Below the pieces are notes generated by a model that was not told the DNA's origin, searched no databases, and worked only from the letters and a program-made list of their open reading frames with translations. A stretch of 27,756 nt of DNA, taken from IMG/VR virus record IMGVR_UViG_3300023196_000991, positions 1-27,756 of that record. The stretch is one strand, 5' to 3'. Origin of the DNA: a virus. Numbering within the stretch: the stretch's first letter is position 1; each line of letters begins with the position of its first letter. The translations under genes and the position numbers were made by a program. Of this stretch, positions 3,177 to 26,634 are shown piece after piece.

Positions 3177-3386
3177 ATGGCACTAACACCTAAAGACTTT
3201 AGGCTAGGCAAACAGGGCGTAGTGATCGGTGGAGATAACATACCGTTCAGCGCCGACCGCCGAACAGCCTACTTAGCATATAAGCAGAACAGGGCAACTC
3301 CAGAACAAATCGAGTTGCTCATGGAAACTGACACTATGCTCACAAAAGCAATGAATGGAGAAGAAGATGCCCCCGGAACAAACTGA
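3177..3386 (+). CDS. Hypothetical protein before scaffold
   Basis: 69 residues with an N-terminal section rich in turns (LGKQGVVIGGDNIPFSADR), then a helix with TPEQIELLMETD, and an acidic tail. It starts 3 bases after the previous stop and overlaps the scaffold gene by 20 bases. No family recognised. Good codon structure and tight packing support it as real. A role in head assembly is suggested only by position. Confidence 0.65.
   Translation: MALTPKDFRLGKQGVVIGGDNIPFSADRRTAYLAYKQNRATPEQIELLMETDTMLTKAMNGEEDAPGTN
3356..3360 (+). promoter_or_regulatory. Ribosome binding site selecting scaffold start at 3367
   Basis: TGGAG lies 6 bases before ATG 3367. The alternative ATG at 3355 sits inside this site and has no comparable one of its own. 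Confidence 0.5.
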
Positions 3387-4194
3387 TGCCAACGTATCCG
3401 CATCAACGGTCGTCGGGTCGCAAGCAGCGACCATCGACACCACAATCGGAGAAGTCAACGCAGCCGAAGCTGCCGCCGACGCCCCAAGCGCCGACAAGCT
3501 CAATGTTACGCAAGCTCAGTTCGACAAGTACTACAACGCCGCAGACGACACCTACAACTGGGAAGCACACGCCCGTGAGCAAGCGTTCGTCGCCGACCAA
3601 GCAGGCGATGACACGCCCGCGCCCGAATACGCGGAAGAGCCGCAAGAGGTTACCGAAGAATATATTGACGACGCGCAGGACATTGTAGATTCAGCCGGTC
3701 TGGATTGGGATGACCTGACGTACAAGATTGGTATGCAGGGTGACATCGATCCCGTGGACTACGATGCCCTCATGGCACTCGGTATACCTCGTGAGGTTAT
3801 TCAGAACCACATCTCAACGATCAGTAATGACGCGCAGGAACATGTGTCTAACGTCACTGACGCATTCGGAGGAAAAGAACAATGGATGCAGACGCAAGCA
3901 TGGGCCAACCGCAATCTGAACGAGACGGAACTAGACCAGTTGAACGTGATGCTGGCGAGTCCCAATTACCAGATGGCAGTGGACATGATCCAGCAACGGG
4001 CTGGAACATCGAATCCGACCTCGCAGCTAACCCAGACACAACCGGGTACTGCCCAAGTAGCGGGTTACGCCTCCCAAGCGGAGATGGTAGCGGACCAACG
4101 GAAGCCTGAATATAAACGTGATCCCGAATTCCGGGCGCGCGTAATGGCTCGTGCCGCACGTTCTGATTGGGCACAGGGAGGGCACACGTTATGA
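3367..4194 (+). CDS. Capsid scaffolding (assembly) protein, T7 gp9-like
   Basis: 275 residues, acidic, rich in Ala, Asp, Gln and Glu, without Cys, as expected of a scaffold that fills the procapsid and leaves before DNA entry. The N-terminal 90 residues are low-complexity; the middle (about 95-200) holds acidic helices with EEYIDDAQDIVDSAGLDWDD. The C-terminus has the basic pattern PEYKRDPEFRARVMARAARS, resembling the DP.FR..V...A..S motif of T7-type scaffolds, where the C-terminal helix binds the coat protein. T7 gp9 is 307 residues. The gene lies between portal and capsid genes, as in T7. Its stop shares ATGA with the next start. Confidence 0.85.
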   Translation: MPPEQTDANVSASTVVGSQAATIDTTIGEVNAAEAAADAPSADKLNVTQAQFDKYYNAADDTYNWEAHAREQAFVADQAGDDTPAPEYAEEPQEVTEEYIDDAQDIVDSAGLDWDDLTYKIGMQGDIDPVDYDALMALGIPREVIQNHISTISNDAQEHVSNVTDAFGGKEQWMQTQAWANRNLNETELDQLNVMLASPNYQMAVDMIQQRAGTSNPTSQLTQTQPGTAQVAGYASQAEMVADQRKPEYKRDPEFRARVMARAARSDWAQGGHTL

Positions 4195-4544
4195 ATACTC
4201 CCGACTACTACGAGAAGAAACGGAAGACACTCACAGGTCAGGTCAACAAGCTCCTCACCGAGAGAGACAAGTTGGCCGACCTAAAGCGTCCCATTGCCGA
4301 GAAGCTCCGTGAGGTTAATGGGCGACTCATCTATGACAAAGAGAACAAGCTCCTCATGGATGAGAGAGATGTTCTCAAGGCCGAACAGTATGTAATGGGT
4401 AGTGAAGTCCGTCGCGTTCGTGGTGAGCTACAGAAGCTCAAGAAGGAATGGATGCAAATGTCCGGTGATGAGAACATCGATCAGCAACGCGCTGATGGCC
4501 GTTCACAACCATCCGCTACGACTGATCGCGTCGAAGACTACTAA
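4191..4544 (+). CDS. Coiled-coil protein following scaffold
   Basis: 117 residues that are almost all charged helix with heptad-like spacing (KTLTGQVNKLLTERDKLADL, then LREVNGRLIYDKENKLL, then VRRVRGELQKLKKEW), ending in a polar tail. A longer frame begins at 4167, but ATG 4191 overlaps the scaffold stop as ATGA and has a GGGAGGG ribosome site. Coupling to the scaffold suggests a helper in head assembly or a minor head component. No family recognised. Confidence 0.75.
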   Translation: MNTPDYYEKKRKTLTGQVNKLLTERDKLADLKRPIAEKLREVNGRLIYDKENKLLMDERDVLKAEQYVMGSEVRRVRGELQKLKKEWMQMSGDENIDQQRADGRSQPSATTDRVEDY

Positions 4545-4561
4545 CTCTTGGAGGAGAGGAT

Positions 4562-5233
4562 ATGCCTAAGAAGAAAGCTGCACCCGTCAAAAACCCGCTG
4601 GGGATTATGACAGCATTCCCAACGAATATTGGGATGAAGACATACACGGACGTAGATGATCTGAACAATCGTCTACGTACGTCTATCTACAAGAAACGTG
4701 GGGAAGACCACGAAGGCATGTATCGCAGCAACACTGCAGGTACATGGCACAGTGACACCGAACTCATGGAGTGGATTAACTCCCCTGAGTTACAGGACAT
4801 GTTCGCTTCGTGCTTCCGAGATTATACCCAAACGTACGGCGTCAAACAAGGCGCGTCGATTGGTCTCAAGCTACAGGCTTGGGCAATGTTATATCAAGAT
4901 GGCGGATACGCCACAGTTCATACACACCCTAACTGCCACTTCTCTGCCGTCTACTACATCGACAACGCGAGCGATGAGGATTCAGGTAGGACGATGGTGA
5001 CAGGGTGTCGCAGTTGTCCCGGAGATATTGAATTCGTGGACAGCCGCGCAACAGGCGGATATCAATTCCCCGGCGTCAACTTCTTGCCAGCCTTCCGGCT
5101 GACACCGAAGGCTGGGATGTTAATAGTCTTCCCCTCGTGGCTCCAACACTTTGTACATCCAGTGATTGGTAAAGAAGATCGCATGTGCATCGCGTGTAAC
5201 GCCACAATCGTATCACACACTGAGAAGGAATAA
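4562..5233 (+). CDS. Putative 2-oxoglutarate/Fe(II)-dependent oxygenase
   Basis: 223 residues preceded by a GGAGAGGA ribosome site. The core matches the small phage/marine 2OG-Fe(II) oxygenase family I know as 2OG-FeII_Oxy_5: QAWAMLYQDGGYATVHTHP (candidate metal ligands His120 and His122), a S..YYID strand (near 127-133), and near the C-terminus GMLIVFPSWLQHFVHPV (candidate distal ligand His196 or His199) followed by EDRMCIACN, where Arg207 would bind the 2-oxoglutarate carboxylate. Such enzymes hydroxylate proteins, nucleic acids or small molecules; no substrate can be read from the sequence. It is embedded between scaffold and capsid genes and so is probably made with virion proteins, raising protein hydroxylation as one possibility. 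The usual HxD carboxylate ligand is not evident; HTH stands at that place. Confidence 0.8.
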   Translation: MPKKKAAPVKNPLGIMTAFPTNIGMKTYTDVDDLNNRLRTSIYKKRGEDHEGMYRSNTAGTWHSDTELMEWINSPELQDMFASCFRDYTQTYGVKQGASIGLKLQAWAMLYQDGGYATVHTHPNCHFSAVYYIDNASDEDSGRTMVTGCRSCPGDIEFVDSRATGGYQFPGVNFLPAFRLTPKAGMLIVFPSWLQHFVHPVIGKEDRMCIACNATIVSHTEKE

Positions 5234-5238
5234 ATCTC

Positions 5239-5763
5239 ATGGCTGACCCTACTACTAACCAGAAGATCGAAAGCGCCGAAATCTCCGGTGACTTTGCTGC
5301 CGACACCTCTGCCGCCATTATTGGCGAAGCGGGCGAAGGACAGGTTATCACTGTCACTGACAACGCTGACTGGACCTACTCCGCTGCTGCCGAAAGCGTC
5401 GGCGGTGAAGTCACAGGCGTTGGTGGTCTCGACTTTGATGTCGAACCCGGTCTCATCTACTCCGGTCCCGTCGGCGGCGCAATTCGCGTCAAGTTCGCGG
5501 GCCTTGATGTCGATCATGGGCTGATTGCCCCTGAAGCGACTGACGTTGTGCAAGCTGCCGTTGTTCTGAACAACGACATCATTGCCTTTGCAGACGAAGG
5601 AAATGCGGTTGAGTTCGACGCTGAACCCGCCATCGAATTCAACTGCGATACCTACATCGGCAATCTCCAGACCGGAGATGTCGTGCGCGTTGCCCTGATT
5701 GGCACGAACGAAGAAACTCTCGATCTCGATGTCGCCGAAGGCGGAACTTTCGTTATCGTTTAA
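5239..5763 (+). CDS. Probable head decoration / minor capsid protein
   Basis: 174 residues, very acidic, almost free of Lys and Arg after residue 10, and rich in beta-strand patterns with regular Gly/Asp turns (GEGQVITVTDNADWTYSAA at the start; GDVVRVALIGTNEETLDLD near the end). Sequences like this, directly upstream of the capsid gene, commonly encode capsid decoration proteins that bind the outside of the head. It lies 5 bases after the oxygenase stop. I recognise no named family, so the role rests on composition and position. A GC-rich hairpin follows at 5803-5838. Confidence 0.6.
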   Translation: MADPTTNQKIESAEISGDFAADTSAAIIGEAGEGQVITVTDNADWTYSAAAESVGGEVTGVGGLDFDVEPGLIYSGPVGGAIRVKFAGLDVDHGLIAPEATDVVQAAVVLNNDIIAFADEGNAVEFDAEPAIEFNCDTYIGNLQTGDVVRVALIGTNEETLDLDVAEGGTFVIV

Positions 5764-5802: not shown

Positions 5803-5838
5803 GGGGGAGCCGCGTCCTTCGAACCGATAGGCTCCCCC
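5803..5838 (+). terminator. GC-rich hairpin without T-tract before capsid gene
   Basis: A perfect 9-bp stem, GGGGGAGCC at 5803-5811 with GGCTCCCCC at 5830-5838, closes an 18-nt loop containing the self-complementary TTCGAA. No T-run follows, so it is not a classical terminator; it could be an attenuator, an RNA-processing site or a barrier protecting the 5' end of capsid mRNA. The rest of the 5764-5957 gap holds an AAGGA ribosome site at 5946-5950 and no recognisable promoter. Confidence 0.55.
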
Positions 5839-5957: not shown

Positions 5958-6983
5958 ATGGCTTTATTTGTAGGGGACCCAAGTGCCCCGACTCGCTTCG
6001 GTACTGATGTTGCCGATACAAGCGATAATACCGGACTCTTCTTGAAGGTGTTCGGTGGAGAAGTCTTCGCGGCTTTCTCCGAAACTACCCACACGATGGA
6101 CAAGCACTACGTGCGTGAGATCGCAAGTGGAAAATCGGCTCAATTTCCTAAGACTTGGAAAGTGGACGCCGCCTATCACGAAGCCGGGCAGGAAATGCTT
6201 GGTCAGGATACTGACGAAACCGAACGAGTCATCACAATCGATGGCCTGTTGGTCTCGCATGTCGGCATCTACGATCTCGATGAGGCCATGAGCCACTTCG
6301 ACGTTCGTGGACGTTACAGTGAAGAACTCGGTCGTGCGCTCGCACGCGTGTTCGACACCAACGTATACCGGACCATTGTCTCGACTGCCAAGCAGTCCAC
6401 TGCATTGTCTGGTGCCAACTCCACCTCCCCGTTCCCCGACGGTCAACGTATCCTGTCTGCTGATGTGACGGGCACGCTTGCCGCGTCTGGTGGCGGTTCT
6501 GACTGGTGGGAAGCTATCCGTGAGATGCGGATTGGTGCTGGTGGAGACAACATCCCTGATGATGATCAGTTGTTTGTTGCGATGCCGTACAACACATTCG
6601 ACAGTCTCAAGTACGCGCAGGTTGCGGACACCGCAGCCAATCCATTCCTCTACGCTAACCGTGACCTCTCCTTTGGTGGTCAGGGTGGCGCTGGTGTGGA
6701 TGGTGCTATCGTCACCGATGGTATTGTCGCGTTCCGGACCAACCTCCTGCCTCAGTCCAATGACATTGCGAACAGCAATATCAAGGCTAAGTACCGCGCC
6801 AACTACACGACCGTTCTGGGCGTGGGCTGGCATGGTGAGGGCGTAGGTACCGTCAAGCTCGTTGGTATGGGCATGGAGCAGACTCGTGACGTTCGTCGTC
6901 AGGAAGACTTCATGGTCGCCAAGATGGCTTGTGGTCATGGCCCACTTCGGAATGAAGGTTGCTGGGAATTCTCGGACACCTAA
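5958..6983 (+). CDS. Major capsid protein (T7 gp10A-like)
   Basis: 341 residues; T7 gp10A has 345. This is the coat protein of the icosahedral head, expected to adopt the HK97 fold. Family features are the N-terminal FLKVFGGEVFAAF segment, the strand KSAQFPKTWKVDAAYHEAG, ERVITIDGLLVSHVGIYDLDEAM, and the helix SEELGRALARVFDTNVYRTI. The ribosome site AAGGA (5946-5950) is well placed. The gene stands alone between a hairpin and a terminator, which would allow its mRNA to be set apart from head and tail genes. I see no slippery site near the 3' end that would make a T7 10B-like frameshift product, and the terminator follows within 50 bases. Confidence 0.95.
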   Translation: MALFVGDPSAPTRFGTDVADTSDNTGLFLKVFGGEVFAAFSETTHTMDKHYVREIASGKSAQFPKTWKVDAAYHEAGQEMLGQDTDETERVITIDGLLVSHVGIYDLDEAMSHFDVRGRYSEELGRALARVFDTNVYRTIVSTAKQSTALSGANSTSPFPDGQRILSADVTGTLAASGGGSDWWEAIREMRIGAGGDNIPDDDQLFVAMPYNTFDSLKYAQVADTAANPFLYANRDLSFGGQGGAGVDGAIVTDGIVAFRTNLLPQSNDIANSNIKAKYRANYTTVLGVGWHGEGVGTVKLVGMGMEQTRDVRRQEDFMVAKMACGHGPLRNEGCWEFSDT

Positions 6984-7082: not shown

Positions 7083-7745
7083 ATGCCTACAAACGCTGGT
7101 CACATGACCAAACTACAAGCGGTCAACGAGATGCTTTGGACAATAGGAGAAGCTCCAGTTTCTTCTTTAACGTCAGGACTCGGTGATGCAGCGATTGCTG
7201 AAACTATACTTGATCGCGTAAGTCGTGAGATCCAATCTACGGGATGGCACGTCAACACACTACGTGCGTACGAACTGACGTACAACAGCGTCTTCCAACA
7301 TGTCCTACCAGATGACACGCTCAAGGTTGATACCGTCAATCACAAGGGCGGGCGTAAGGCCGACACCCCAGCCCCATCTGCATTCATCAACGCAGTGATG
7401 CGACGCAGTGCGGATGACACCATGTGGCTGTTATTTGACATGGATAACCATACTGAGCTTTGGACTGATGGTCCCGCTACACTGACGGTTGACCTCGTAA
7501 AGCTTCTTAACTACGCTGACCTACCCCCCAGTCTCCAGTACTACGTCTGGACGAAAGCGGCACGTCGTTACCAACAGGGCGCAATGTCCTCTACGATACT
7601 GCATAAGATGGCTGAGAGGGATGTTATGGAAGCACTGACGCAAGCGATGCAGGATGACATGGATACTGAGGATGCAAACATGTTGCATGATAATTTCGGT
7701 GCCCGCGCAATTGCGCTAAGGAATAATCCACTATCGGGAGTTTGA
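7083..7745 (+). CDS. Tail tubular protein A (T7 gp11-like adaptor)
   Basis: 220 residues; T7 gp11 has 196. It forms the ring joining the portal to the tail nozzle. The family signature is clear near the N-terminus: KLQAVNEMLWTIGEAPVSSL, then AETILDRVSREIQSTGWHVN, the typical L..vNeML..IGE.PV and SREIQ..GW..N patterns. A C-terminal helix region (YYVWTKAARRYQQG) is also typical. It has an AAGGAG ribosome site 6 bases before the start and ends 1 base before the next gene. Confidence 0.93.
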   Translation: MPTNAGHMTKLQAVNEMLWTIGEAPVSSLTSGLGDAAIAETILDRVSREIQSTGWHVNTLRAYELTYNSVFQHVLPDDTLKVDTVNHKGGRKADTPAPSAFINAVMRRSADDTMWLLFDMDNHTELWTDGPATLTVDLVKLLNYADLPPSLQYYVWTKAARRYQQGAMSSTILHKMAERDVMEALTQAMQDDMDTEDANMLHDNFGARAIALRNNPLSGV

Positions 7746-7746
7746 T

Positions 7747-10470
7747 ATGGGTAAGTTAGTTGAGGGACGATTATCTTCTCTGTTTGGGGGAGTATCTCGC
7801 CAACCAGATGCGGTACGTCGGGCCGAACAGGTCAACTCTGCAGATAACGTACTTCTGTCTGTAACCACCGGAGGATTCGAGAAGCGCCCTGCAACTCAAT
7901 ACATTGCTGACTGCTCCTCATATTTAGATGCGACTGCTGATTATGCCTTCCACTCAATCGACCGTGATGCGGCAGAACAGTATTTCGTTCTTGTTGATCA
8001 TTCAGCCCCTGACATATTCGTGATCAACACTCTCACAGGCGCACAGGTCACAGTGGATGTGGAAGATAGTACGCGATACTTTGCTATCGAGAACTCCTCG
8101 ATGGGCACCGGCACCGGAATCCTAGAGGATTCTCTTTCCGTAGATATTGAAACTCAGGTTGCTTACGCAACAGGGGAGACGACATTCGCATGGGCGTGGA
8201 GTATGTCCGACGCCACTACTGGACGCTTCAAGATTGAAGGTAGTGCCAACGGTACTGTTTGGAATGACATAGCTACTGGTAAGGGTGGCGCATCCTCCGG
8301 TACCTTTAATACCACCATTGCCGCCGTCGCAACGGGCGACCACAATTATATCCGGGTCACTATGACCACAGGCAACGGAAGTGCAAGTGATACAGTCACT
8401 GTCAAGGCGACCTTCAAAGATAAGACGTATCTCCTGCAAGGTGCGAGTTCCGACGATTTCAAGCTTTCAACGGTTGCTGATACGACGTTCGTATTGAACA
8501 GACAGGTCGTATCTCGGATGGCAGAAGCAGACACGGGTTCCGTCACTGGAACCTATCAAACATTCTCCGACCTCCCAGCGGCATCAGCTAGTGGGAACAT
8601 CCATAAAGTCATTGGTAGTGATACAGACGGCTTTGGTACGTACTTCGTTAAGGACGATACTGGCTCCATCTACCGAGAGTGGGTAGATCCTGCTGCACAC
8701 AATAACTTCGATGCATCTTCGATGCCCCATCTACTTCAGCGCCAAGCTGATGGGACCTTCCACTTCTCCGCTTCAACATGGGGACCCCGTACGTCGGGTG
8801 ATGAAACACTGACGGCAGCCCCTACCTTCATTGGACTGAAGCTACAGGATATCGGCCTCTATAGAAATCGACTTACAATCATTGCCGATGAGAACGAGTA
8901 TTCCTCGCGTGTGGGCGAACCTTTCGAAATGTTCCCCCAGAAAGCCGTGGAAGTTTTAGATAACGATCCGGTTACACGCGGGGCTACTACCAACGATGTG
9001 AACATCCTGAAGGTCATGACGGTCTTCAAGAAGGTTCTCTTCTGTTCCTCGAATCGAAACCAATTCGAACTATCCAGTAGTAACGCATTCACGCCGACCA
9101 GTGCGGTGTTCGATCTCGCTACGTCCTACCCCAGTAGCCCTAATACGCGGCCCGCTGTCATGGGGGACAATCTATACTATCCCGGTGTGGGCGCGGAGAA
9201 TGCTACGATCTATGAGTATTTCTTTGATGACGCCAGCTTGTCCAATACGGCGGCTGACGTAACGAAGCATTGCGCGGGGTACATCAAGAACGATGTCAAA
9301 CTGATCGCAGGGGACGCCACTTCAAACTCCCTGTTTGTGATGACCTCTAATGATCAGAACAGACTGTACGTCTACAAGACATACTTTGACAATTCCCAGA
9401 AGCTACAGAGTGCGTGGTCTCGATACGAATTCGGTTCATCCGAATCTAACGCATTCATCTATGGTTACGCCGTGTTCGACGGGTTCCTCGTGATGCTTAT
9501 CGAACGTCAAGACGGTGGTATCTACTTGGAGCAGATGCCTATCGAGCGTGAAGATTACGATACGACGATGGGGTACATTCCTCTGATAGATCAGCGCGAT
9601 ATCCTGACGGGAACATACGTATCCGCACAGGATGCCACTCACTGGACTACCCTGTGGGAGCATGATACTGATGCACGCGTTGTCCTAGGACCTAGCTTCA
9701 CAGCGGGTGCAGGAGCCGCACCTACTACGTACCACCCATCCTCTGTAAGCTTGACTATTGATAATATACAGGCTGGAGAGACCTTCATCCTTGGAGGTCT
9801 AACGTATACGGCACATCTGAATACGACGACCGTTGCTAATCGTGAGTTCAAAATGAACGGCAATAGCATTCAAGACGCAGGGGACTTGGCTACGTGCCTT
9901 AATGACGCTACCTATGGTCTCGTGGGGGTCACGGCCACTAACAACGGTGACGCAACCCTCACGCTGAACATGGACAATCCAGCACAAGACGGCGGGATTT
10001 TAACACCAACGGGAACGACAATCTCTCAAGGAACCGTCGTCTCGGTGGATCTGATGAATCGTGTCGCAGCGAAAGGGGATTGGTCAGCACAATCAAGCTA
10101 CGTCGGACGGACCTACACATCCTCTGTTGAATTATCTAAGCTCTTCGTACAGGAAGAGGGAGTGTCCGCCATCACGGGTAAGGTGGTGGTCAAGGATATC
10201 ACATTTAGATTGGTGGATGCAGGGTACCTGAAGGTGACAGTAACTCCTGAAGATCGTACCACCTATAACTATGAGTTTGAGGGACGTATTCTGGGAGATA
10301 CCGCAGCGGCTGGTCCGCAGGAGTTGGCGGACGAACAACTATTCCGCACGCCTATTAACGCTGATGGACGCACAACGGTGGTGACGCTCTCTAATAATCA
10401 GCCAATGCCATGTGTGGTGACCAGTGCCGCGTGGCGTGGCTTCTATAACGAAATAACAAGACAGGAGTAA
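7747..10470 (+). CDS. Tail tubular protein B / nozzle (T7 gp12-like)
   Basis: 907 residues; T7 gp12 has 794. It forms the tail nozzle. The start is typical: GRLSSLFGGVSRQPDAVR, then GGFEKRPATQYI. The central signature is GLYRNRLTIIADENEYSSR (about residues 377-396), VGEPFEMFP and a DNDPVT motif. Extra length seems to come from two beta-rich insertions: about 108-226, a Ser/Thr/Gly sandwich-like segment, and about 670-765, resembling small Ig-like or surface-binding domains (GETFILGGLTYTAHLN, then TATNNGDATLTLNMDN). These may project from the nozzle. It ends 5 bases before the internal protein gene. Confidence 0.93.
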   Translation: MGKLVEGRLSSLFGGVSRQPDAVRRAEQVNSADNVLLSVTTGGFEKRPATQYIADCSSYLDATADYAFHSIDRDAAEQYFVLVDHSAPDIFVINTLTGAQVTVDVEDSTRYFAIENSSMGTGTGILEDSLSVDIETQVAYATGETTFAWAWSMSDATTGRFKIEGSANGTVWNDIATGKGGASSGTFNTTIAAVATGDHNYIRVTMTTGNGSASDTVTVKATFKDKTYLLQGASSDDFKLSTVADTTFVLNRQVVSRMAEADTGSVTGTYQTFSDLPAASASGNIHKVIGSDTDGFGTYFVKDDTGSIYREWVDPAAHNNFDASSMPHLLQRQADGTFHFSASTWGPRTSGDETLTAAPTFIGLKLQDIGLYRNRLTIIADENEYSSRVGEPFEMFPQKAVEVLDNDPVTRGATTNDVNILKVMTVFKKVLFCSSNRNQFELSSSNAFTPTSAVFDLATSYPSSPNTRPAVMGDNLYYPGVGAENATIYEYFFDDASLSNTAADVTKHCAGYIKNDVKLIAGDATSNSLFVMTSNDQNRLYVYKTYFDNSQKLQSAWSRYEFGSSESNAFIYGYAVFDGFLVMLIERQDGGIYLEQMPIEREDYDTTMGYIPLIDQRDILTGTYVSAQDATHWTTLWEHDTDARVVLGPSFTAGAGAAPTTYHPSSVSLTIDNIQAGETFILGGLTYTAHLNTTTVANREFKMNGNSIQDAGDLATCLNDATYGLVGVTATNNGDATLTLNMDNPAQDGGILTPTGTTISQGTVVSVDLMNRVAAKGDWSAQSSYVGRTYTSSVELSKLFVQEEGVSAITGKVVVKDITFRLVDAGYLKVTVTPEDRTTYNYEFEGRILGDTAAAGPQELADEQLFRTPINADGRTTVVTLSNNQPMPCVVTSAAWRGFYNEITRQE

Positions 10471-14453: not shown

Positions 14454-17400
14454 CGCAAGACAGATTTGAGAAGGAGCGGTGGGCAAAGCACTTTGCTGAG
14501 ATCCCCGCCGAACAACTGTATACTCGTCCTGAGTTCATAGATAACATCACTGATAACCAGATTGATGGATTCTGGGACTCGACGGCTGCAGGATTCTCTC
14601 TTGAGAGTGGAACGCTCCCTAGTGTTGGTATGGCTATACATGATCGTTTCAAGTTTGGATCTGACGCCGACGTGAAGGACCCTAACTTCAACCCTTACAA
14701 GCATATGCAGGATCAGGGCCTCTGGCAGCAGGGTGTGTGGAAGAGGTTGGAGGAGTCCGATCAACCTGCGGATATTATAGCGTATGAGATGATCACTAAC
14801 GCCACATCTCCACACCAAGTTGAGCGGGCCATACTCCAATGGGGCCGTAAGCGAGAGCTTGAGGAGTCCTCCGAGGAGCATGGTTTCGGTACCTTCTTAG
14901 GGTCTGTCGTAGGGTTTATCCCTGACGTAGCGACAGCGTTCGTCCTTGGGGGACCAGTTGCTTCTGGTGTTGCAGGGGTGGCACGCTTATCTAAGTGGAT
15001 TGAACTGTCTCAACGAATCAATAAGATTGCACAGGTATCGCGCGGAAGCATAGCCACTGCCCGCCTTCCCGGTGCCATTAAGGCCGGTCTCACTGGTGGG
15101 GCATGGGGTCTTGGTGAGACAGCTATGTATGATATAAACAGAATCGTAACAAATGATGAATATCTTTTCAACACACTGGGCGGTATACTCTTTGGCGCAG
15201 CCTTGGGTGGTATCTTTCCCCGCGTTATTGGACGCGTTCACGTAAATGAGACGGGGGAACTTCGTTATGGTCCCACGCTCGTCAACGAGGCGTTGTTGCA
15301 CAAGGCTATGGCTGAGAGCGAATACGCAGGCACTGCGGGCGCTAAGGCTGTAGACGAAGATGCGGCTTCAGCAGCAGCGGAGCAGAACGTACGTATGACA
15401 GTTGCCAAGTCTCAGTACTCCCCGTGGCACAATCTACAACAGAAGTGGGCGGGTATTGTTGGGACGGCCAAGATGTTCACATCCCCCAAAAACTTCATTG
15501 GTCAACTGGGTAACGGAGCTATACTATTCGGTAAGAAGCACCCCTCTTTGGGGACATATATGGAGGACGTGTATAACGTCATGGGACGCTTCACACGAGG
15601 CGTGTACAAACATGAGCATGAGCTACGTGGGGGCGCGGGCGTACGTACAGCGGCAGATGAATCTGAGTTCTACGGTAAGGAAGCCTCCTCATGGGTTGAG
15701 CAGAATGACCGCATGTATGAGGATGACTTTATCAAGAAGATAGGAGACAAGTTCGGTCTCTTCGAGCAGGTGGGTAAGGGAAGTGAACTCCTCAATAGGA
15801 CGCGACGGTTCTTTAACGTCCGGCAGATTCCCCAGAAGGCTGAGATACTAGCGGCGGCTCAGTTCATCCGCCGTAGACGGGCACTCCAGTTAGAGAATGA
15901 CCGCATCATGGAGAAGATGGCGGCTAAGTTTGAAGAAGACCCCACGCTAAATCCAGACGATTTCATAACCGCTATCCCTACTGATCAGGGCATTATGGAT
16001 CTGATGCCCGGACTCAAGGCACTGGACAATGATGACGAAATCAACAAGGCCTTTATGGACTTGGCAGAGCAGTACGCTGACCGTTACGACAAACGCTATG
16101 AGGGTCTACAGAAGATCAACCAAGACGCTGGGATGCTCAAACCTGAGCAAGTGATCGACCACTACTTCCCACAACTGTATAACGTCAAACAGGCCCGACA
16201 GGACATGACGGGCTTCCTCCACTTCATCCATCAGGTGTTTGAGAAAGAACCTGACATCGATTGGATCAACGAGATGTTCCACCGTGAGATGGTGGATGCA
16301 GGAGTTGACGCCAATGGTAACAAGATTCAGAAGCCCGATGGGAAGGCAATTGATGAAGGTGAGACCCTCGCGGACGTAGCGGCGCGTGACCCCAAGCTGT
16401 ATACGGAGATACGTGAGCGGTGGGCTGATACAGTCCGTGCAGCGGAGCTTGATCACCTTGAGAAGAACATAGAAGCAATCCAAGCGAAGCTTGACGATTC
16501 TCAGTATGGCTCCATGAAAGAGATGGAAGCCCATCATGCGAAGCTTGACGCAGCGCATAACAAGGCGATTGATAAAGACAATGCCGCATTAGATGCGGGC
16601 GATGAGGTATACCTTAATGACCCAGATGCGAACGAGGGATGGTCCCAACTTCGCGATGGTATTAAGGAGCGTTTGGCAAAGCGTTCATGGAAGCGTGCTG
16701 AGGATCAGAAGAAATTAGATGAGAATCGTGCAGCGTATGACATGGCGGATCGTCATGAGTTCCTGAAGAAGGAGCGTCGCCGGAAGGCTTCGAATAAGGT
16801 GGAGTCCTCCAAGCTGATGAAGCAGTTGCAGAAGAAGACGGACAAAGAAGTTGAACTGTTAGCAAGGGACACGCTTGCTCAAGCCGTCATGAAGATTCGT
16901 AACGCAATCGCATCTGGCTCTCAATCACACATGGGTTCCCTGCCTACAAACACCTTAACTACGGGTAACTCACGATACATGGAACGTCAAATCAACTGGC
17001 GTCAACATGCCTTCACTCCTCAAGGTAAGAAGTTCCTAGATCAGAACGTCGAAAGGGCGGACAACATCTACGCGCATACGACCATGCGTCAGGTGGCTCT
17101 TAGGCAGACGCTAGGTAAGTATATGGAGGGAGTGACGGGAGAGTCCTTCGAGGGCAGCGGGGATGAGATGATCCAAGCGACTATAGGATACATCGCATCA
17201 CAAGCAGAGATAGCCCTAGCAAAGGCAACCAGCCAGCGTGAGATCGACCTGATCAACAAGGTCCGGACGAGGTCACTGGATACCTTTGAAGCGTTTCTGA
17301 AGAACTACAACAACAGTCACACCAGTGACATGAACGACAGCATGGGTCTAGAGATTGTTAAGGGTGGGGTTGCTATCACATCCCTCGGAACTCTAGGCAT

Positions 17401-21175: not shown

Positions 21176-21615
21176 TGTTACCCCTACCTCTTGAATTGGT
21201 TACAATGTTGGGGAGCAGCCTGATAGGCGGTTTCCTAACGATATGGGCCAAGAAGATAGAGAACCAGAAGGCTCAGACTGAGATGTTGATTGGTCTTCGA
21301 AAGCAGGAAGCCGAAGCAATAGACGCGGCACGACGCTATGAGAATCCCGGCTTCCAGTACACGCGACGGACAATCGCTATACTCGCGGTCCTATTCATTG
21401 TCGTATGGCCTAAGATTGTGCCTGTATTCTGGCCGGACGTGTTGACCATCGTAGGATGGACTACATGGGACCCCGGCTTCTGGATATTCGAGGGCAAGGA
21501 ACTTACGAAGTTTCAATACCTCAAGGGGCTGGTTATTACACCCCTAGACACCCACCTGATGTCTGCCATCGTTGGCATGTACTTCGGGGCAAGCATGGTA
21601 AAGAATATAAAATGA
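21175..21615 (+). CDS. Putative holin with three membrane helices
   Basis: 146 residues with three hydrophobic segments: about 5-25 (ELVTMLGSSLIGGFLTIWA), 66-88 (TIAILAVLFIVVWPKIVPVF) and 125-142 (THLMSAIVGMYFGASMV). A charged helix joins the first two. The general form, N-terminal helix, KKIENQKAQ linker, R..IA..AV.F, and a glycine-containing last helix, resembles three-helix holins of phages and gene transfer agents. A holin makes the inner-membrane hole at lysis. An AGGGAGG-type ribosome site lies just before, within the previous gene. No separate endolysin is present in this window. Confidence 0.65.
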   Translation: MLPLPLELVTMLGSSLIGGFLTIWAKKIENQKAQTEMLIGLRKQEAEAIDAARRYENPGFQYTRRTIAILAVLFIVVWPKIVPVFWPDVLTIVGWTTWDPGFWIFEGKELTKFQYLKGLVITPLDTHLMSAIVGMYFGASMVKNIK

Positions 21616-22103
21616 TTGTACCTTTGTGGTTAGAGTCTGAGGAGGCCGAAGATGAGTACAAGAACATTCTCTCTGACAATATCAACCATTTCTACCCCGG
21701 ACATCCGGGTACTTCTTGTGTCTTCATTGACACCGTGAAGGAGACCGTGGCAGGGATAGTTCACATAAACAACTATCAACCGCAGTACAAAACAGCGGAC
21801 TTGTCCGGCGTCTTCTTCGACAAACGTGCGTTCACACGTCAGAATCTGATCTACATCTATCAGTGGATCTTTGAAGACTTAGGTGTAACGCGTCTTAATA
21901 TGGCAACCACTGCAAACAATCGACAGGCCCAAAGAATCAACACTATGATGGGCGGGAAGCTTGATGCCATATTACCAAAGTGGTGGGGTGATGAACCCAT
22001 GCACCTGTACGGTCTACTTGGACCGGACGCACTAAAATATCTTGAAAGGTTACGACATGGTAAGAAAAAGGACGATCTGGGCACAGGATCTAGCCCAGTT
22101 TAA
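21612..22103 (+). CDS. GNAT-like acetyltransferase family protein
   Basis: 163 residues from ATG 21612 (ATGA overlap with the holin stop); an earlier in-frame start at 21456 would overlap that gene heavily. The pattern of strands and helices fits the GNAT fold: VAGIVHINNYQ as the central strands, DLSGVFFDKRAFTRQNLIYIYQW near the acetyl-CoA-binding strand and helix, and LGVTRLNMATTANNRQAQRINTMMGGKLD as the C-terminal motif, in which N-R-A-x-R and a final Gly are typical. The classical Q/RxxGxG/A pyrophosphate loop is not obvious, so activity is uncertain. In phage structural regions such proteins occur as small internal or host-modifying enzymes; the substrate is unknown. Confidence 0.65.
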   Translation: MIVPLWLESEEAEDEYKNILSDNINHFYPGHPGTSCVFIDTVKETVAGIVHINNYQPQYKTADLSGVFFDKRAFTRQNLIYIYQWIFEDLGVTRLNMATTANNRQAQRINTMMGGKLDAILPKWWGDEPMHLYGLLGPDALKYLERLRHGKKKDDLGTGSSPV

Positions 22104-22350: not shown

Positions 22351-22362
22351 TAGGAGAGATTG

Positions 22363-24540
22363 ATGCCACCGAAGACAAAGCGTAAATCAGCCATGAACCC
22401 CATCACCAAAGCGGAGATGGGCGTATCACGAACGTGTGTCGAGTGTGAGGAGTCCAAGCTGGTCTCCAACAAGACATACTCCCGTAACAACAAAGGGCTG
22501 CGTGGTTGGTCTACGACTTGTCGGGTGTGCCAAGCAATCAACACTGCCGAGACCCAAGGGTGGTCTGTAAAGAAGACTGTTGCTCAGATCAAGCAAGAGC
22601 GTGAGACTCTCGATAGTATGATCGCCGAGATGTATCTGCTCGCCGAGACCAACAAGAACCAAGGCAGAATAAACGACATAGTTGCTTACCTATCTCAAAA
22701 CGTGATGGATGAGATGGACCCCAAGAAAAGCTTCAAGAACTTCATCAACATCATCAAACCTCTGGTAGCTGGGTGGAGGGAACCCGGAGTAATTCATGAC
22801 GACATCATTGATGGTCTACTGAGTCCTCACAGACGCAGACTAATCATCGCTACGCGTTACTCTGCCAAGTCAACCCTGACGGGCATATACGTGGCGTGGA
22901 GGATCTTCCGAGATCCTTTGATTAAGGTGATGTTGATATCGCGTGGCTCTCGATTAGCGTCGCGTATGTTGCGATCCATTCGCAAGGTCTATATCCAACA
23001 TTGTCCGATGCTCCACCATCTCATGCCAACCGAGGACTGCCTTGATAATGCTGAACAATTCCAAACACCTCAAAGCTCTGCCCTCACCACTGGGGGTGCC
23101 ACTATGTCATCCTTTGGTGTCTCCTCTGACCTTCCCGGCTACCGGGCAGACCTTACCATCGGTGATGATGTTGAGGGACCATCTGATGACACACCTGAGA
23201 AGGTTGGAGAACTCCTTGAGCGACTGAACGAACTACACATGATCAACCCTACGGGTGAGAAGGTCATGTTGGGGACCTACCAGACTGAGTTCTCGATCTA
23301 CGCGCAGTACGCGGACCAGTATGATACGGAGTCATGTGAGAACGTGTGGGAGAACCACCGGGCTTGCATGTTCGATGAAGATGAGAACGGCAATCTCAAA
23401 TCGAGATGGCTGGGCATGTTCACCGATAAAGATGCGGTTGATTGGAGACGATCTGTTACGAAACGTGCGTGGCGCTTGCACGCCATGCTTATTGCCGACC
23501 CCTCCATCCTAAATGAACGCCCACTCAAGATCTCTGACTTACCAGTGATCAAGTGTGACGCGAGGAAGGGAGAAGGTCCCGTCCGAATAGAGCGCACAGT
23601 CACCGCCGCGAACTTACCCACTTGGGGCGCACCCAAGGGTGATGGTTGGTACTGGGGTGACCCCGGTACCGAGAACGCTGTCTATGCACAGACAGTAGCT
23701 GCCATTGACCCTGCCTCCGGGTTGGCTGCACGGGATGCTATCGGTTGTGCAATCGTTAGCGTTACCCCTGCTGGGTTCGCGGTTATTCGACACCTAGAGG
23801 GCGTGCGTGGGCTTACAAAGGCCGACAACATGCGACGGTGTGCGTTGCTGATGCGTACCTTTAAGGTACAGCATTTGCTAATTGAGGAACTCGCTGATGG
23901 GTTCTTCGGAGAGATGCTTGAAGCTGAATTGCTCAACATCGATTACCCTATGACTGTAGAGAAGGTTACAACAGGTGGACAACAAAAAGGAAGACGCATC
24001 ATCGAAGTCCTTGCGCCCCCAATGGGGGAAGGTCGTATTGTCATGGTTGACAGCGTTGTTGATTCTGATGATGGGGGTGAATTCGTCAACCAACTCACCC
24101 GTATCTCATACGATGGCACAACAGGTAAAGGCCGACAGCACGACGACATCGTCGATGCCCTAGCCCATGCCATCCAACACATCAAGGGAAGTGTGACCTC
24201 CGATATCACATCTAACCTTGAAGGTTTGGAAGCAGAACGAATCGACAGACTTCGGTACATCCCAATGCGTGCCGGTGGTCTTGGTGGATTCACTGACGAC
24301 CCTAACTCTAACGGTAACATTGTCGGACGAGACGTTGACCATACGATGGATTTGTCTATGGCTGAACTATTGTTCGAGGATGATACTGTACTCATCACAT
24401 TGCAGACGCGACGTGATGCCCTCCAAGCACGAGTTGCTGAGGAGAGACTGATTGGCCTTACACCACTGAAGAGCCAACAGCGCAAGCTGGCGCAACTTAA
24501 CCAGCAAATCAAGGAACTACGGGAGCATAAGATACTATGA
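22363..24540 (+). CDS. Terminase large subunit (T7 gp19-like) with N-terminal zinc finger
   Basis: 725 residues; T7 gp19 has 586. This is the DNA-packaging ATPase and nuclease. Residues 25-56 hold CVEC and CRVC (Cys25, 28, 53, 56), a likely zinc finger in an extra N-terminal region. The ATPase follows: a variant Walker A ATRYSAKST (Lys169) and a Walker B strand DLTIGDDVEGP (Asp268, Asp269). The nuclease domain has AIDPASGL (Asp449), LLIEELADG (Glu508, Glu509) and HDDIVDALAHA (Asp594, 595, 598), the expected acidic metal ligands. The C-terminus is a coiled coil. The ribosome site AGGAGAG lies 4 bases before the start. The end of this gene closes the T7-like morphogenesis block. Confidence 0.95.
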   Translation: MPPKTKRKSAMNPITKAEMGVSRTCVECEESKLVSNKTYSRNNKGLRGWSTTCRVCQAINTAETQGWSVKKTVAQIKQERETLDSMIAEMYLLAETNKNQGRINDIVAYLSQNVMDEMDPKKSFKNFINIIKPLVAGWREPGVIHDDIIDGLLSPHRRRLIIATRYSAKSTLTGIYVAWRIFRDPLIKVMLISRGSRLASRMLRSIRKVYIQHCPMLHHLMPTEDCLDNAEQFQTPQSSALTTGGATMSSFGVSSDLPGYRADLTIGDDVEGPSDDTPEKVGELLERLNELHMINPTGEKVMLGTYQTEFSIYAQYADQYDTESCENVWENHRACMFDEDENGNLKSRWLGMFTDKDAVDWRRSVTKRAWRLHAMLIADPSILNERPLKISDLPVIKCDARKGEGPVRIERTVTAANLPTWGAPKGDGWYWGDPGTENAVYAQTVAAIDPASGLAARDAIGCAIVSVTPAGFAVIRHLEGVRGLTKADNMRRCALLMRTFKVQHLLIEELADGFFGEMLEAELLNIDYPMTVEKVTTGGQQKGRRIIEVLAPPMGEGRIVMVDSVVDSDDGGEFVNQLTRISYDGTTGKGRQHDDIVDALAHAIQHIKGSVTSDITSNLEGLEAERIDRLRYIPMRAGGLGGFTDDPNSNGNIVGRDVDHTMDLSMAELLFEDDTVLITLQTRRDALQARVAEERLIGLTPLKSQQRKLAQLNQQIKELREHKIL

Positions 24541-24921: not shown

Positions 24922-26634
24922 ATGCTTAAGAATTCTTACGGACCAGAAACTATAGTGTCTCTGGACATACTATTAGAGAAGCATAGACTACCGGGTGAAG
25001 ACTTTGAAGAAGGGTGTAGTAGAATAGCTAACGCTCTAAAGGATGATGACCATCACTTTAGGACGTTTCGATCCTCTCTCCTTCGACTAGCCTTCCTCCC
25101 CGGTGGTCGTGTGCAAAGCGCAATGGGCGCACCACGTACAGTCACTCCCTACAATTGCTTTGTATGCATGACCATACTCGACAGCATGGACAGCATCACA
25201 GACGCCGTGAAGTACGCTGCAGAAACAATGAGACTAGGAGGCGGCATTGGTTACGACTTCTCTCCCCTCAGGCCTAACCGCGACATCATTAAATCCCTTG
25301 ACAGTTGGTCAAGCGGACCTCTTGCTTTCATGGATATATTCGACGCCTTATGTAAAACAATATCTTCAGCAGGGCATCGCCGTGGGGCGCAGATGGGGGT
25401 CCTCCGGGTTGATCATCCTGACATCGAAGAATTTGTCAGAGCCAAGCAAAACAAAGACAGACTCACCACCCTCAACCTGAGTGTCGGTATCACTGATGCA
25501 TTCATGAACGCCGTCCTTGAGGACACAGACTTCGATCTGGTCTTTGAGGGTCGGGTGTACAAAACCATCAGGGCTGTTGACCTGTGGGATGAGATCATGC
25601 GGGCAACATGGAACTGGGCAGAACCCGGTGTCATCTTCCTAGACACAATAAACAACATGAACAATCTATACTACTGCGAGACAATCTCTACCACCAACCC
25701 CTGTGGGGAGCAACCGCTCCCTTCCAATGGTGCATGTCTACTTGGATCGTTCAACCTCGCATCATACATCTTCCCCGCCATAGGTGGGGGCTACCTGTTC
25801 GACTGGGATCAGTTTACGGCTGATATCGGTCCTGTGGTCCGTGCTATGGACAACGTGGTGGACCGTGCCCTCTACCCGCTTGATGCCCAACGTGAAGAAG
25901 CATTCGCGAAGCGTCGCATGGGTCTGGGTGTCTGTGGTTTGGCTAATGCTGCGGAGGCGCTAGGATTGCCCTACGGTACTGACCGCATGCTTGCGTGGAC
26001 TGAGGAAGTCCTGACATGCCTACGAAACACGGCCTATTATGAGTCCATGCTCCTCGCTAAGGAGAAGGGACCATTCCCCCTGTTCAATGCTACGAAGTAC
26101 TGTTCTGGTAAGTTCATCCAGACGCTTCCGGCTGATCTGGTCAGACAGATACGAGAACACGGCATACGTAACTCCCATCTACTAAGCATCGCTCCGACAG
26201 GGACGATTGCTTTGGGTGCGGACAACGTAAGCGGTGGTGTAGAGCCTCCCTTTTCCATCGAGTACACACGCGTGAAGCAGGAACCCGATGGAGAAGTGGA
26301 GCTTCTCGTTCAAGACTATGCTTACATGAAGTGGGGCATCAAGGGCCGTACAGCAACAGAGATCACTGGTGAGGAGCATGTTAAGGTCCTGACCACTGCT
26401 GCGAAGTACGTTGACTCTGCGGTGTCCAAGACATGCAATGTTGATCCCAACATGACATGGGACGACTTCAAAGACTTGTACATGCAGGCTTGGAAAGGCG
26501 GTGCTAAAGGATGCACCACCTTCAACCCTTCCGGTAAGCGGTTCGGGATACTTAAGGAAAGTGCACCCTCAGTGAAGATTGAGGCTGAGGCATGTTACGT
26601 AGACCCAGAGACAGGTGCGCGTAGCTGTGGATAG
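24922..26634 (+). CDS. Ribonucleotide reductase, class II (adenosylcobalamin-dependent)
   Basis: 570 residues. The enzyme reduces ribonucleotides to deoxyribonucleotides for phage DNA synthesis, using vitamin B12 to make the thiyl radical. Visible sites: YNCFV with Cys79 and ACLLGSFNL with Cys272 as the redox pair; NPCGEQPLP with Asn259, radical Cys261 and Glu263; SIAPTGTIALG near the end of the barrel; and a C-terminal cysteine pair (Cys558, Cys569) to pass electrons. GGGIGYDF, RRGAQMG and the NPCGEQ form favour class II over class I. No radical-generating small-subunit gene follows. There is no N-terminal ATP cone. It is shorter than many cellular NrdJ enzymes. The gene lies after the terminase, outside the usual replication block. 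Confidence 0.9.
   Translation: MLKNSYGPETIVSLDILLEKHRLPGEDFEEGCSRIANALKDDDHHFRTFRSSLLRLAFLPGGRVQSAMGAPRTVTPYNCFVCMTILDSMDSITDAVKYAAETMRLGGGIGYDFSPLRPNRDIIKSLDSWSSGPLAFMDIFDALCKTISSAGHRRGAQMGVLRVDHPDIEEFVRAKQNKDRLTTLNLSVGITDAFMNAVLEDTDFDLVFEGRVYKTIRAVDLWDEIMRATWNWAEPGVIFLDTINNMNNLYYCETISTTNPCGEQPLPSNGACLLGSFNLASYIFPAIGGGYLFDWDQFTADIGPVVRAMDNVVDRALYPLDAQREEAFAKRRMGLGVCGLANAAEALGLPYGTDRMLAWTEEVLTCLRNTAYYESMLLAKEKGPFPLFNATKYCSGKFIQTLPADLVRQIREHGIRNSHLLSIAPTGTIALGADNVSGGVEPPFSIEYTRVKQEPDGEVELLVQDYAYMKWGIKGRTATEITGEEHVKVLTTAAKYVDSAVSKTCNVDPNMTWDDFKDLYMQAWKGGAKGCTTFNPSGKRFGILKESAPSVKIEAEACYVDPETGARSCG

Follow-up and report, generated by a model that had tools for sequence, protein, structure and literature searches.

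What does an oxygenase act upon when its gene lies among the genes for a phage head? Genes for 2-oxoglutarate (2OG) oxygenases are numerous in marine phages and are mostly filed as auxiliary metabolic genes; in the portions of the literature covered, none has been assigned an experimentally shown function. The gene analysed here belongs to a marine phage related to T7. The window, i.e., the whole stretch of DNA under analysis, is a complete IMG/VR virus record of 27,756 bases, the late region of which is T7-like. The features relevant to the question are the following:

933-2498: portal gene
3355-4194, plus strand: gene for the scaffold (T7 capsid assembly) protein (PF05396, E 9.8e-10; phrog_1052, head assembly)
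4191-4544, plus strand: coiled-coil ORF, overlapping the scaffold gene by 4 nt
4550-4559, plus strand: likely ribosome-binding site of the oxygenase gene, GGAGGAGAGG, read directly from the sequence
4562-5233, plus strand: oxygenase gene (TIGR02466/PF13759), 223 residues, ATG start
4919-4927, plus strand: codons H120-T121-H122, predicted metal ligands (HxH)
5147-5149, plus strand: codon H196, predicted distal metal ligand, conserved in the aligned rows
5180-5182, plus strand: codon R207, predicted contact of the 2-oxoglutarate carboxylate, conserved in the aligned rows
5239-5763, plus strand: gene for an acidic protein of 174 residues, a predicted C1q/TNF-like jelly roll and putative decoration protein and substrate
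5437-5451, plus strand: codons D67-V68-E69-P70-G71, hypothetical candidate modification site (14 homologues)
5958-6983, plus strand: gene for the major capsid protein (MCP; PF21703, E 2e-39; phrog_267)
7083-7745 and 7747-10470: tail tube genes
22360-24540: gene for the terminase large subunit

The oxygenase ORF sits in the head block, between the T7-type scaffold and MCP genes, 17 nt from the upstream coiled-coil ORF and 5 nt from the downstream acidic ORF. The original prediction had placed it between scaffold-associated and decoration genes with junctions of 5-17 bp; the coordinates and the PF05396 and PF21703 matches of the neighbours agree, and the presence of the ORF in the head operon is confirmed. 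Homologues of the coiled-coil ORF were not found in the relatives scanned. Scans for promoters and terminators performed no better than on shuffled sequences, Rfam and tRNA scans found nothing, and a DNA-level search with the head region returned only matches shorter than 90 bp, from six Pseudomonas phages.

The gap between the acidic and MCP genes features a G-rich hairpin (5803-5838; GGGGGAGCC...GGCUCCCCC). Similar GGGGGGC...GCCCCCC hairpins, each followed by CA(C/U)UCU, are found in the same gap in two relatives (L015 and L021). The hairpin 5' of the MCP gene is possibly an mRNA processing or attenuation site; fold z-scores in these gaps are only -1.1 to -1.7. Elsewhere in the window, an ORF for a GNAT-like acetyltransferase (21456-22103; weak PF13302 match, phrog_4470) lies between the late genes and the terminase gene, and is a possible second late-region enzyme of the protein-modifying type. 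An adenosylcobalamin-dependent ribonucleotide reductase (24922-26634; NrdJ_Z, 483.8 bits) is encoded downstream of the terminase gene.

Profile searches bear out the assignment of the protein to the 2OG oxygenases, as had been proposed from the sequence. The score against TIGR02466 is 69.2 bits (curated cut-off 62.5) and that against PF13759 (2OG-FeII_Oxy_5) is 64.8 bits (curated cut-off 27); PHROG 81 (phrog_81) is matched at E 3e-32. The closest solved sequences are 2RG4 (E 0.0059) and 3BVC (E 0.039). An AlphaFold2 model built from 23 aligned sequences (pLDDT 87.0, pTM 0.86) has the fold expected of a 2OG oxygenase, a predicted double-stranded beta-helix, and gave 433 matches in the PDB at E <= 0.001. 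In VIA-align comparisons, in which rows differing by less than 1 in Z are regarded as tied, 3BVC (Z 18.3) and 2RG4 (Z 18.1) lead, and both are likewise the top Foldseek matches. They are followed by the P. putida prolyl hydroxylase P4H (Z 16.1, or 15.5 in complex with EF-Tu), a Dictyostelium PHD (15.7), PHD2 (15.6) and OGFOD1 (15.4). The matches to protein prolyl hydroxylases reach Z 15-16 over 173-185 residues, and the number of PHD2-type rows means little because PHD2 is over-represented in the PDB. Membership of the prolyl hydroxylases was not assigned, since the HxD...H that it requires is absent (HxH is found instead) and the likeness is one of fold only. It is the fold and the profile matches, not the metal triad, that place the protein in the Fe(II)/2OG superfamily. 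A search of the genome contigs with one alignment (A1) yielded 45 pattern matches, none of which was confirmed.

The proposed motif set consisted of HTH at residues 120-122, H196 or H199, and R207. In a family-profile alignment of 68 phage rows, HxH is present in all 63 rows having those columns, the distal histidine (H196) in 60/60 and the arginine (R207) in 58/58. H199 is poorly kept (His in 25 of 59 phage rows) and drops out of the set. A second set of 32 rows, made up of 30 rows from L245-L274, the 2RG4 gene locus (L165, the same gene as L245) and the window, features HxH in 28/28 rows with that column (27 bacterial rows and the window), the distal histidine in 32/32 and the arginine in 30/31. 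The canonical HxD/E...H facial triad is not found, residue 122 being His and HxH occurring in every aligned row. The lack of a clear HxD carboxylate had been noted originally and stands, but the site is not merely unclear: His replaces the carboxylate throughout the family. Because HxH is kept across phage and bacterial rows, this is a family rule and not decay. E157, a candidate for the missing carboxylate, was set aside, as its column contains K or S in some rows. The spacing of H120, H122 and H196 would suit a three-histidine centre, which, like the fold around it, is a prediction. R207 presumably contacts the carboxylate of 2-oxoglutarate, as in the superfamily at large.

The three-histidine site is the main reason for caution over the oxidation that we propose. 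In the available part of Gorres et al. (2009; PMC2767507), human prolyl 4-hydroxylase carrying Asp414->His (D414H) is described as having no detectable hydroxylase activity; since this three-histidine enzyme is inactive, oxygenase chemistry cannot be assumed from the fold. The same result, with HxH in place of HxD and a small gene located beside its putative client, would suit a metal-binding or assembly protein that has lost, or has never had, oxygenase activity and uses the fold as a chaperone for the jelly-roll protein. We consider such a protein improbable, because phages show no variation, and bacteria almost none, at the distal arginine and the three histidines, as in an active site.

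To follow the gene through related phages, viral contigs were gathered with oxygenase, MCP and acidic-protein queries and then scanned for the proteins of the window, the loci of one contig being merged. Among 101 contigs with a scaffold-to-MCP interval, 12 (the window being one of them) carry both the oxygenase and the acidic gene, 89 carry neither, and none carries one alone; in distant relatives, the absence of the acidic gene could partly reflect divergence beyond detection. The order scaffold, oxygenase, acidic protein, MCP is the same in 12/12 contigs with a complete interval. The oxygenase was found in 20 distinct T7-like contigs, of which fewer than 20 are independent because several (L004/L006/L010, L007/L008 and L002/L011) duplicate one another closely or are probably pieces of a single genome. 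All 18 of these contigs with a visible upstream flank carry the scaffold gene there, and in 16/16 the acidic gene follows the oxygenase directly. Placement with the head genes rather than in an early metabolic block, as predicted originally, is thus seen in every T7-like relative with a visible flank. Conservation of this placement, and its link to a single partner gene, make the observation stronger than first stated. A location mainly in the early operons of relatives, which had been named as evidence against the idea, does not occur in the T7-like clade; the contexts in distant T4-like phages are mixed.

Five contigs (L018 and L092-L095) fall in the same MCP clade as the window and carry neither gene. 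The MCP of L018 is 65% identical to that of the window, and the MCPs of L092-L095 are 71% identical to that of L018. In L092, the slot is filled by a different, unrelated-looking ORF of 156 residues. Gene order is rearranged in L018, in which the MCP gene lies upstream of the portal gene, and an Hfq gene (15287-15580; PF17209, E 7.9e-24) directly 3' of the scaffold gene is followed by two ORFs with an Mtd_N domain. In an MCP tree of 70 rows, 63 of which were scored for the trait, the oxygenase-acidic pair switches state three times, always jointly (3/3). A sign test on these three independent joint transitions gives p 0.25, and three transitions cannot reach significance.

These patterns bear on a role in metabolism. 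For cyanophages, the accessible text of Sullivan et al. (2010; PMC3037559) describes a phytanoyl-CoA dioxygenase-like gene in the core genome and proposes 2OG modulation, and the window enzyme might similarly act on a metabolite or use up 2-oxoglutarate, shifting the nitrogen status of the host. There is little likelihood of this here, given that the gene holds a fixed position in a structural operon and is tied to one structural gene, and that no metabolic neighbours of the oxygenase were found in the T7-like clade.

The partner gene encodes a protein with a computed pI of 4.05. Searches of Pfam and PHROG-type profiles gave no convincing family match, and nothing in 50,697 named phage records matches it at E 0.1. 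The small gene T4-GC516, which precedes cyanophage oxygenases, was considered as a homologue and rejected by eye from alignments A3 and A4. The AlphaFold2 model of the acidic protein (14 sequences, pLDDT 83.8) consists almost entirely of beta structure and resembles C1q/TNF-like jelly rolls, such as EDA-A1 (Z 12.5) and C1QL1 (Z 11.4). It also matches the portal-tail complex of cyanophage A4 (Z 11.7), a short tail fibre domain of A-1(L) (11.2), the spore-surface proteins ExsFA and BxpB, and numerous predicted structures of viral fibres or C1q domains. On this model, a jelly roll of the C1q/TNF kind is predicted, together with a decoration or fibre-tip role. The original idea of a decoration protein draws its support from this model, and gene order marks the protein as a putative decoration protein of the capsid. 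D67, P70 and G71 are invariant in 14/14 homologues and come after a low-confidence loop of the model at residues 59-61; the patch is a possible modification site, nothing more.

Because its gene travels with that of one predicted capsid-surface protein, the oxygenase may modify the virus shell. We propose that the gene product would be a catalytically active non-haem iron oxygenase, a TIGR02466/PF13759 member made late and translated beside its protein substrate. Before or during head assembly it would modify a virion protein, the neighbouring acidic jelly-roll protein being the likeliest. We infer that the reaction would be a 2-oxoglutarate-dependent hydroxylation and that the acidic protein would be its substrate. 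Besides the placement and joint occurrence of the two genes, this proposal is favoured by the fold matches ranking next after 2RG4 and 3BVC, which are enzymes with protein substrates, and by the grouping of the T7-head oxygenases with T4-like copies from tail-fibre modules. That two genes adjoin says little about an enzyme-substrate relationship when the phage operon is compact. That a late, three-histidine-type member of TIGR02466 oxidises the jelly-roll protein encoded next to it is a tentative proposal, with somewhat less than an even chance of being correct.

Other virion proteins were considered by comparing oxygenase carriers with L018, L092 and L095, all of which are without the oxygenase. 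None of the 124 MCP residues that are invariant in carriers is changed in all three non-carriers; the corresponding counts are 1/13 for the scaffold and 1/116 for the portal. For the two tail tube proteins, 4/19 and 5/31 residues are changed, only L092 and L095 being compared. The enzyme might modify one of these proteins (MCP, scaffold, tail or fibre), the acidic gene being a passenger. The shared operon and the T4-like relatives located beside gp23 and gp3 (P-SSM2) or beside tail-fibre genes would fit such a target, and the near absence of co-varying residues in MCP, scaffold and portal speaks against it; overall, we find it quite improbable. Co-variation lends no support to the MCP as an obligate substrate, and the MCP was rejected as the target on this evidence, which is weak, as a target residue could outlast the enzyme.

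Beyond the T7-like phages, 96 records of named phages match the oxygenase at E 1e-5, every one of them bearing a cyanophage or marine virus label, and 188 match at E 0.01. Twenty places in named records were inspected, and the context labels given to them reflect our own judgement. In P-SSM2, the homologue lies between gp23 and gp3, a virion-type context. In ACG-2014d (copy 1), S-RIM8, P-HM1, Syn1, MED4-213 and S-SSM6b, it belongs to one shared module with two further conserved genes, located mostly after tail-fibre genes, as is the case for the copies of P-HM1, Syn1, MED4-213 and S-RIM8; S-SSM6b, which is unannotated, was assigned to the module by its gene pattern. The S-SKS1 homologue is near a tail-fibre gene, and one HTVC008M copy lies between terminase genes; both of these, like the shared module, were also classed as virion-type. 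A second HTVC008M copy, beside baseplate genes, was counted as another context. Distant homologues also occur in non-virion contexts, the neighbours being phoH, tRNAs, RecA or, in arrays, other oxygenases.

In a tree of 43 oxygenase rows, the 15 T7-head sequences form one group (100/99), which joins the six T4-like sequences of the shared module in a group of 21 rows (98/92). Three other virion-context rows fall elsewhere. A single clade of all 24 virion-module oxygenases is not rejected (p-AU 0.152), a result that does not show such a clade to exist. The deep joins of the tree are unsure because many rows are long-branched.

Several further observations were made in these records. S-CREM1 (L080, 1585-7075) has an unbroken row of nine genes; the annotation of eight is 2OG-Fe(II) oxygenase and that of the remaining one JmjC. 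In Syn10 (L076), at least two ORFs in a tightly spaced run of "hypothetical" ORFs match the oxygenase profile. In HTVC008M (L071, 5120-5824), a "minor coat protein" gene overlaps a 2OG oxygenase gene; the protein is DUF6445 in Pfam, so the label of PHROG 1644 may be wrong, and phrog_1644 was rejected as support for a virion context. The 2RG4 gene (L165) has close relatives in many Rhodobacterales, with at least 514 confirmed candidates, 80 loci of which were kept (L165-L244); a function for these relatives was not found in the literature searched.

Oxygenase homologues are also present in 22 of 150 sampled cellular genomes. Together with the non-virion contexts in T4-like phages and the match of the fold to OGFOD1 and to P. 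putida P4H, the prolyl hydroxylase of EF-Tu, this would suit an enzyme with a host protein as its late-infection target, for instance a translation factor or a ribosomal protein, the kinds of substrate used by P. putida P4H and OGFOD1, and with a place in the head operon only for high late expression. The acidic gene need not come and go with such an enzyme, yet none of the 101 contigs is discordant, and we regard a host target as unlikely.

Our preferred reading remains modification of the acidic protein. In its fullest form, a natural three-histidine oxygenase with a prolyl-hydroxylase fold would oxidise a capsid decoration protein post-translationally, a different target being used in the tail-fibre modules of T4-like cyanophages; this we put forward as doubtful, if still conceivable. 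If the two genes act together as proposed, phage capsids bear oxidative modifications made by an enzyme. Linking the clade to one predicted capsid-surface protein turns a "function unknown" into a test of two genes and, if the pair works, the family-wide HxH...H would be a natural test of 2OG chemistry at a three-histidine metal centre. Should the three-histidine reading be true, the phage would encode an enzyme that matures the surface of its own virion, and a metal site of the kind that abolishes activity in engineered prolyl 4-hydroxylase would here be functional.

In the accessible parts of the open-access literature searched, neither this gene pair nor virion hydroxylation is described. 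Phage 2OG oxygenases resembling human EGLN3 are already in print (PMC12774648, as far as its accessible text goes), and the available portions of PMC9599517, PMC10580990, PMC11561400 and PMC2984593 discuss genes of this kind as markers, whether auxiliary, seasonal or conserved. According to the accessible part of PMC10575957, Syn5 has knob-like capsid proteins, and P-SCSP1u and P-SSP7 are without decoration proteins. The acidic gene occupies the same kind of head module as the Syn5 knobs.

Among known enzymes, P. putida P4H, PHD2/EGLN1 and OGFOD1 are similar to the window oxygenase in predicted fold. The metal site of PHD2 and OGFOD1 is HxD...H, and PHD2 features a distal H-x-V...R pattern, as does the window oxygenase. 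P4H likewise has HxD...H (PMC2767507, available text), in contrast to the HxH...H of the window family. Members of TIGR02466/PF13759/PHROG 81 share HxH...H...R with the window oxygenase in both bacteria and phages, and the solved folds closest to it are 2RG4 and 3BVC. The cyanophage core "phytanoyl-CoA dioxygenase" T4-GC 101 is homologous, its identity to the window protein being mostly about 22-31%, but is found in T4-like genomes with other neighbours. The other members of TIGR02466/PF13759 that we met come from cellular genomes or from marine phages, T4-like ones among them; unlike them, the window clade keeps a constant place in a T7-like head operon, beside a neighbour of its own.
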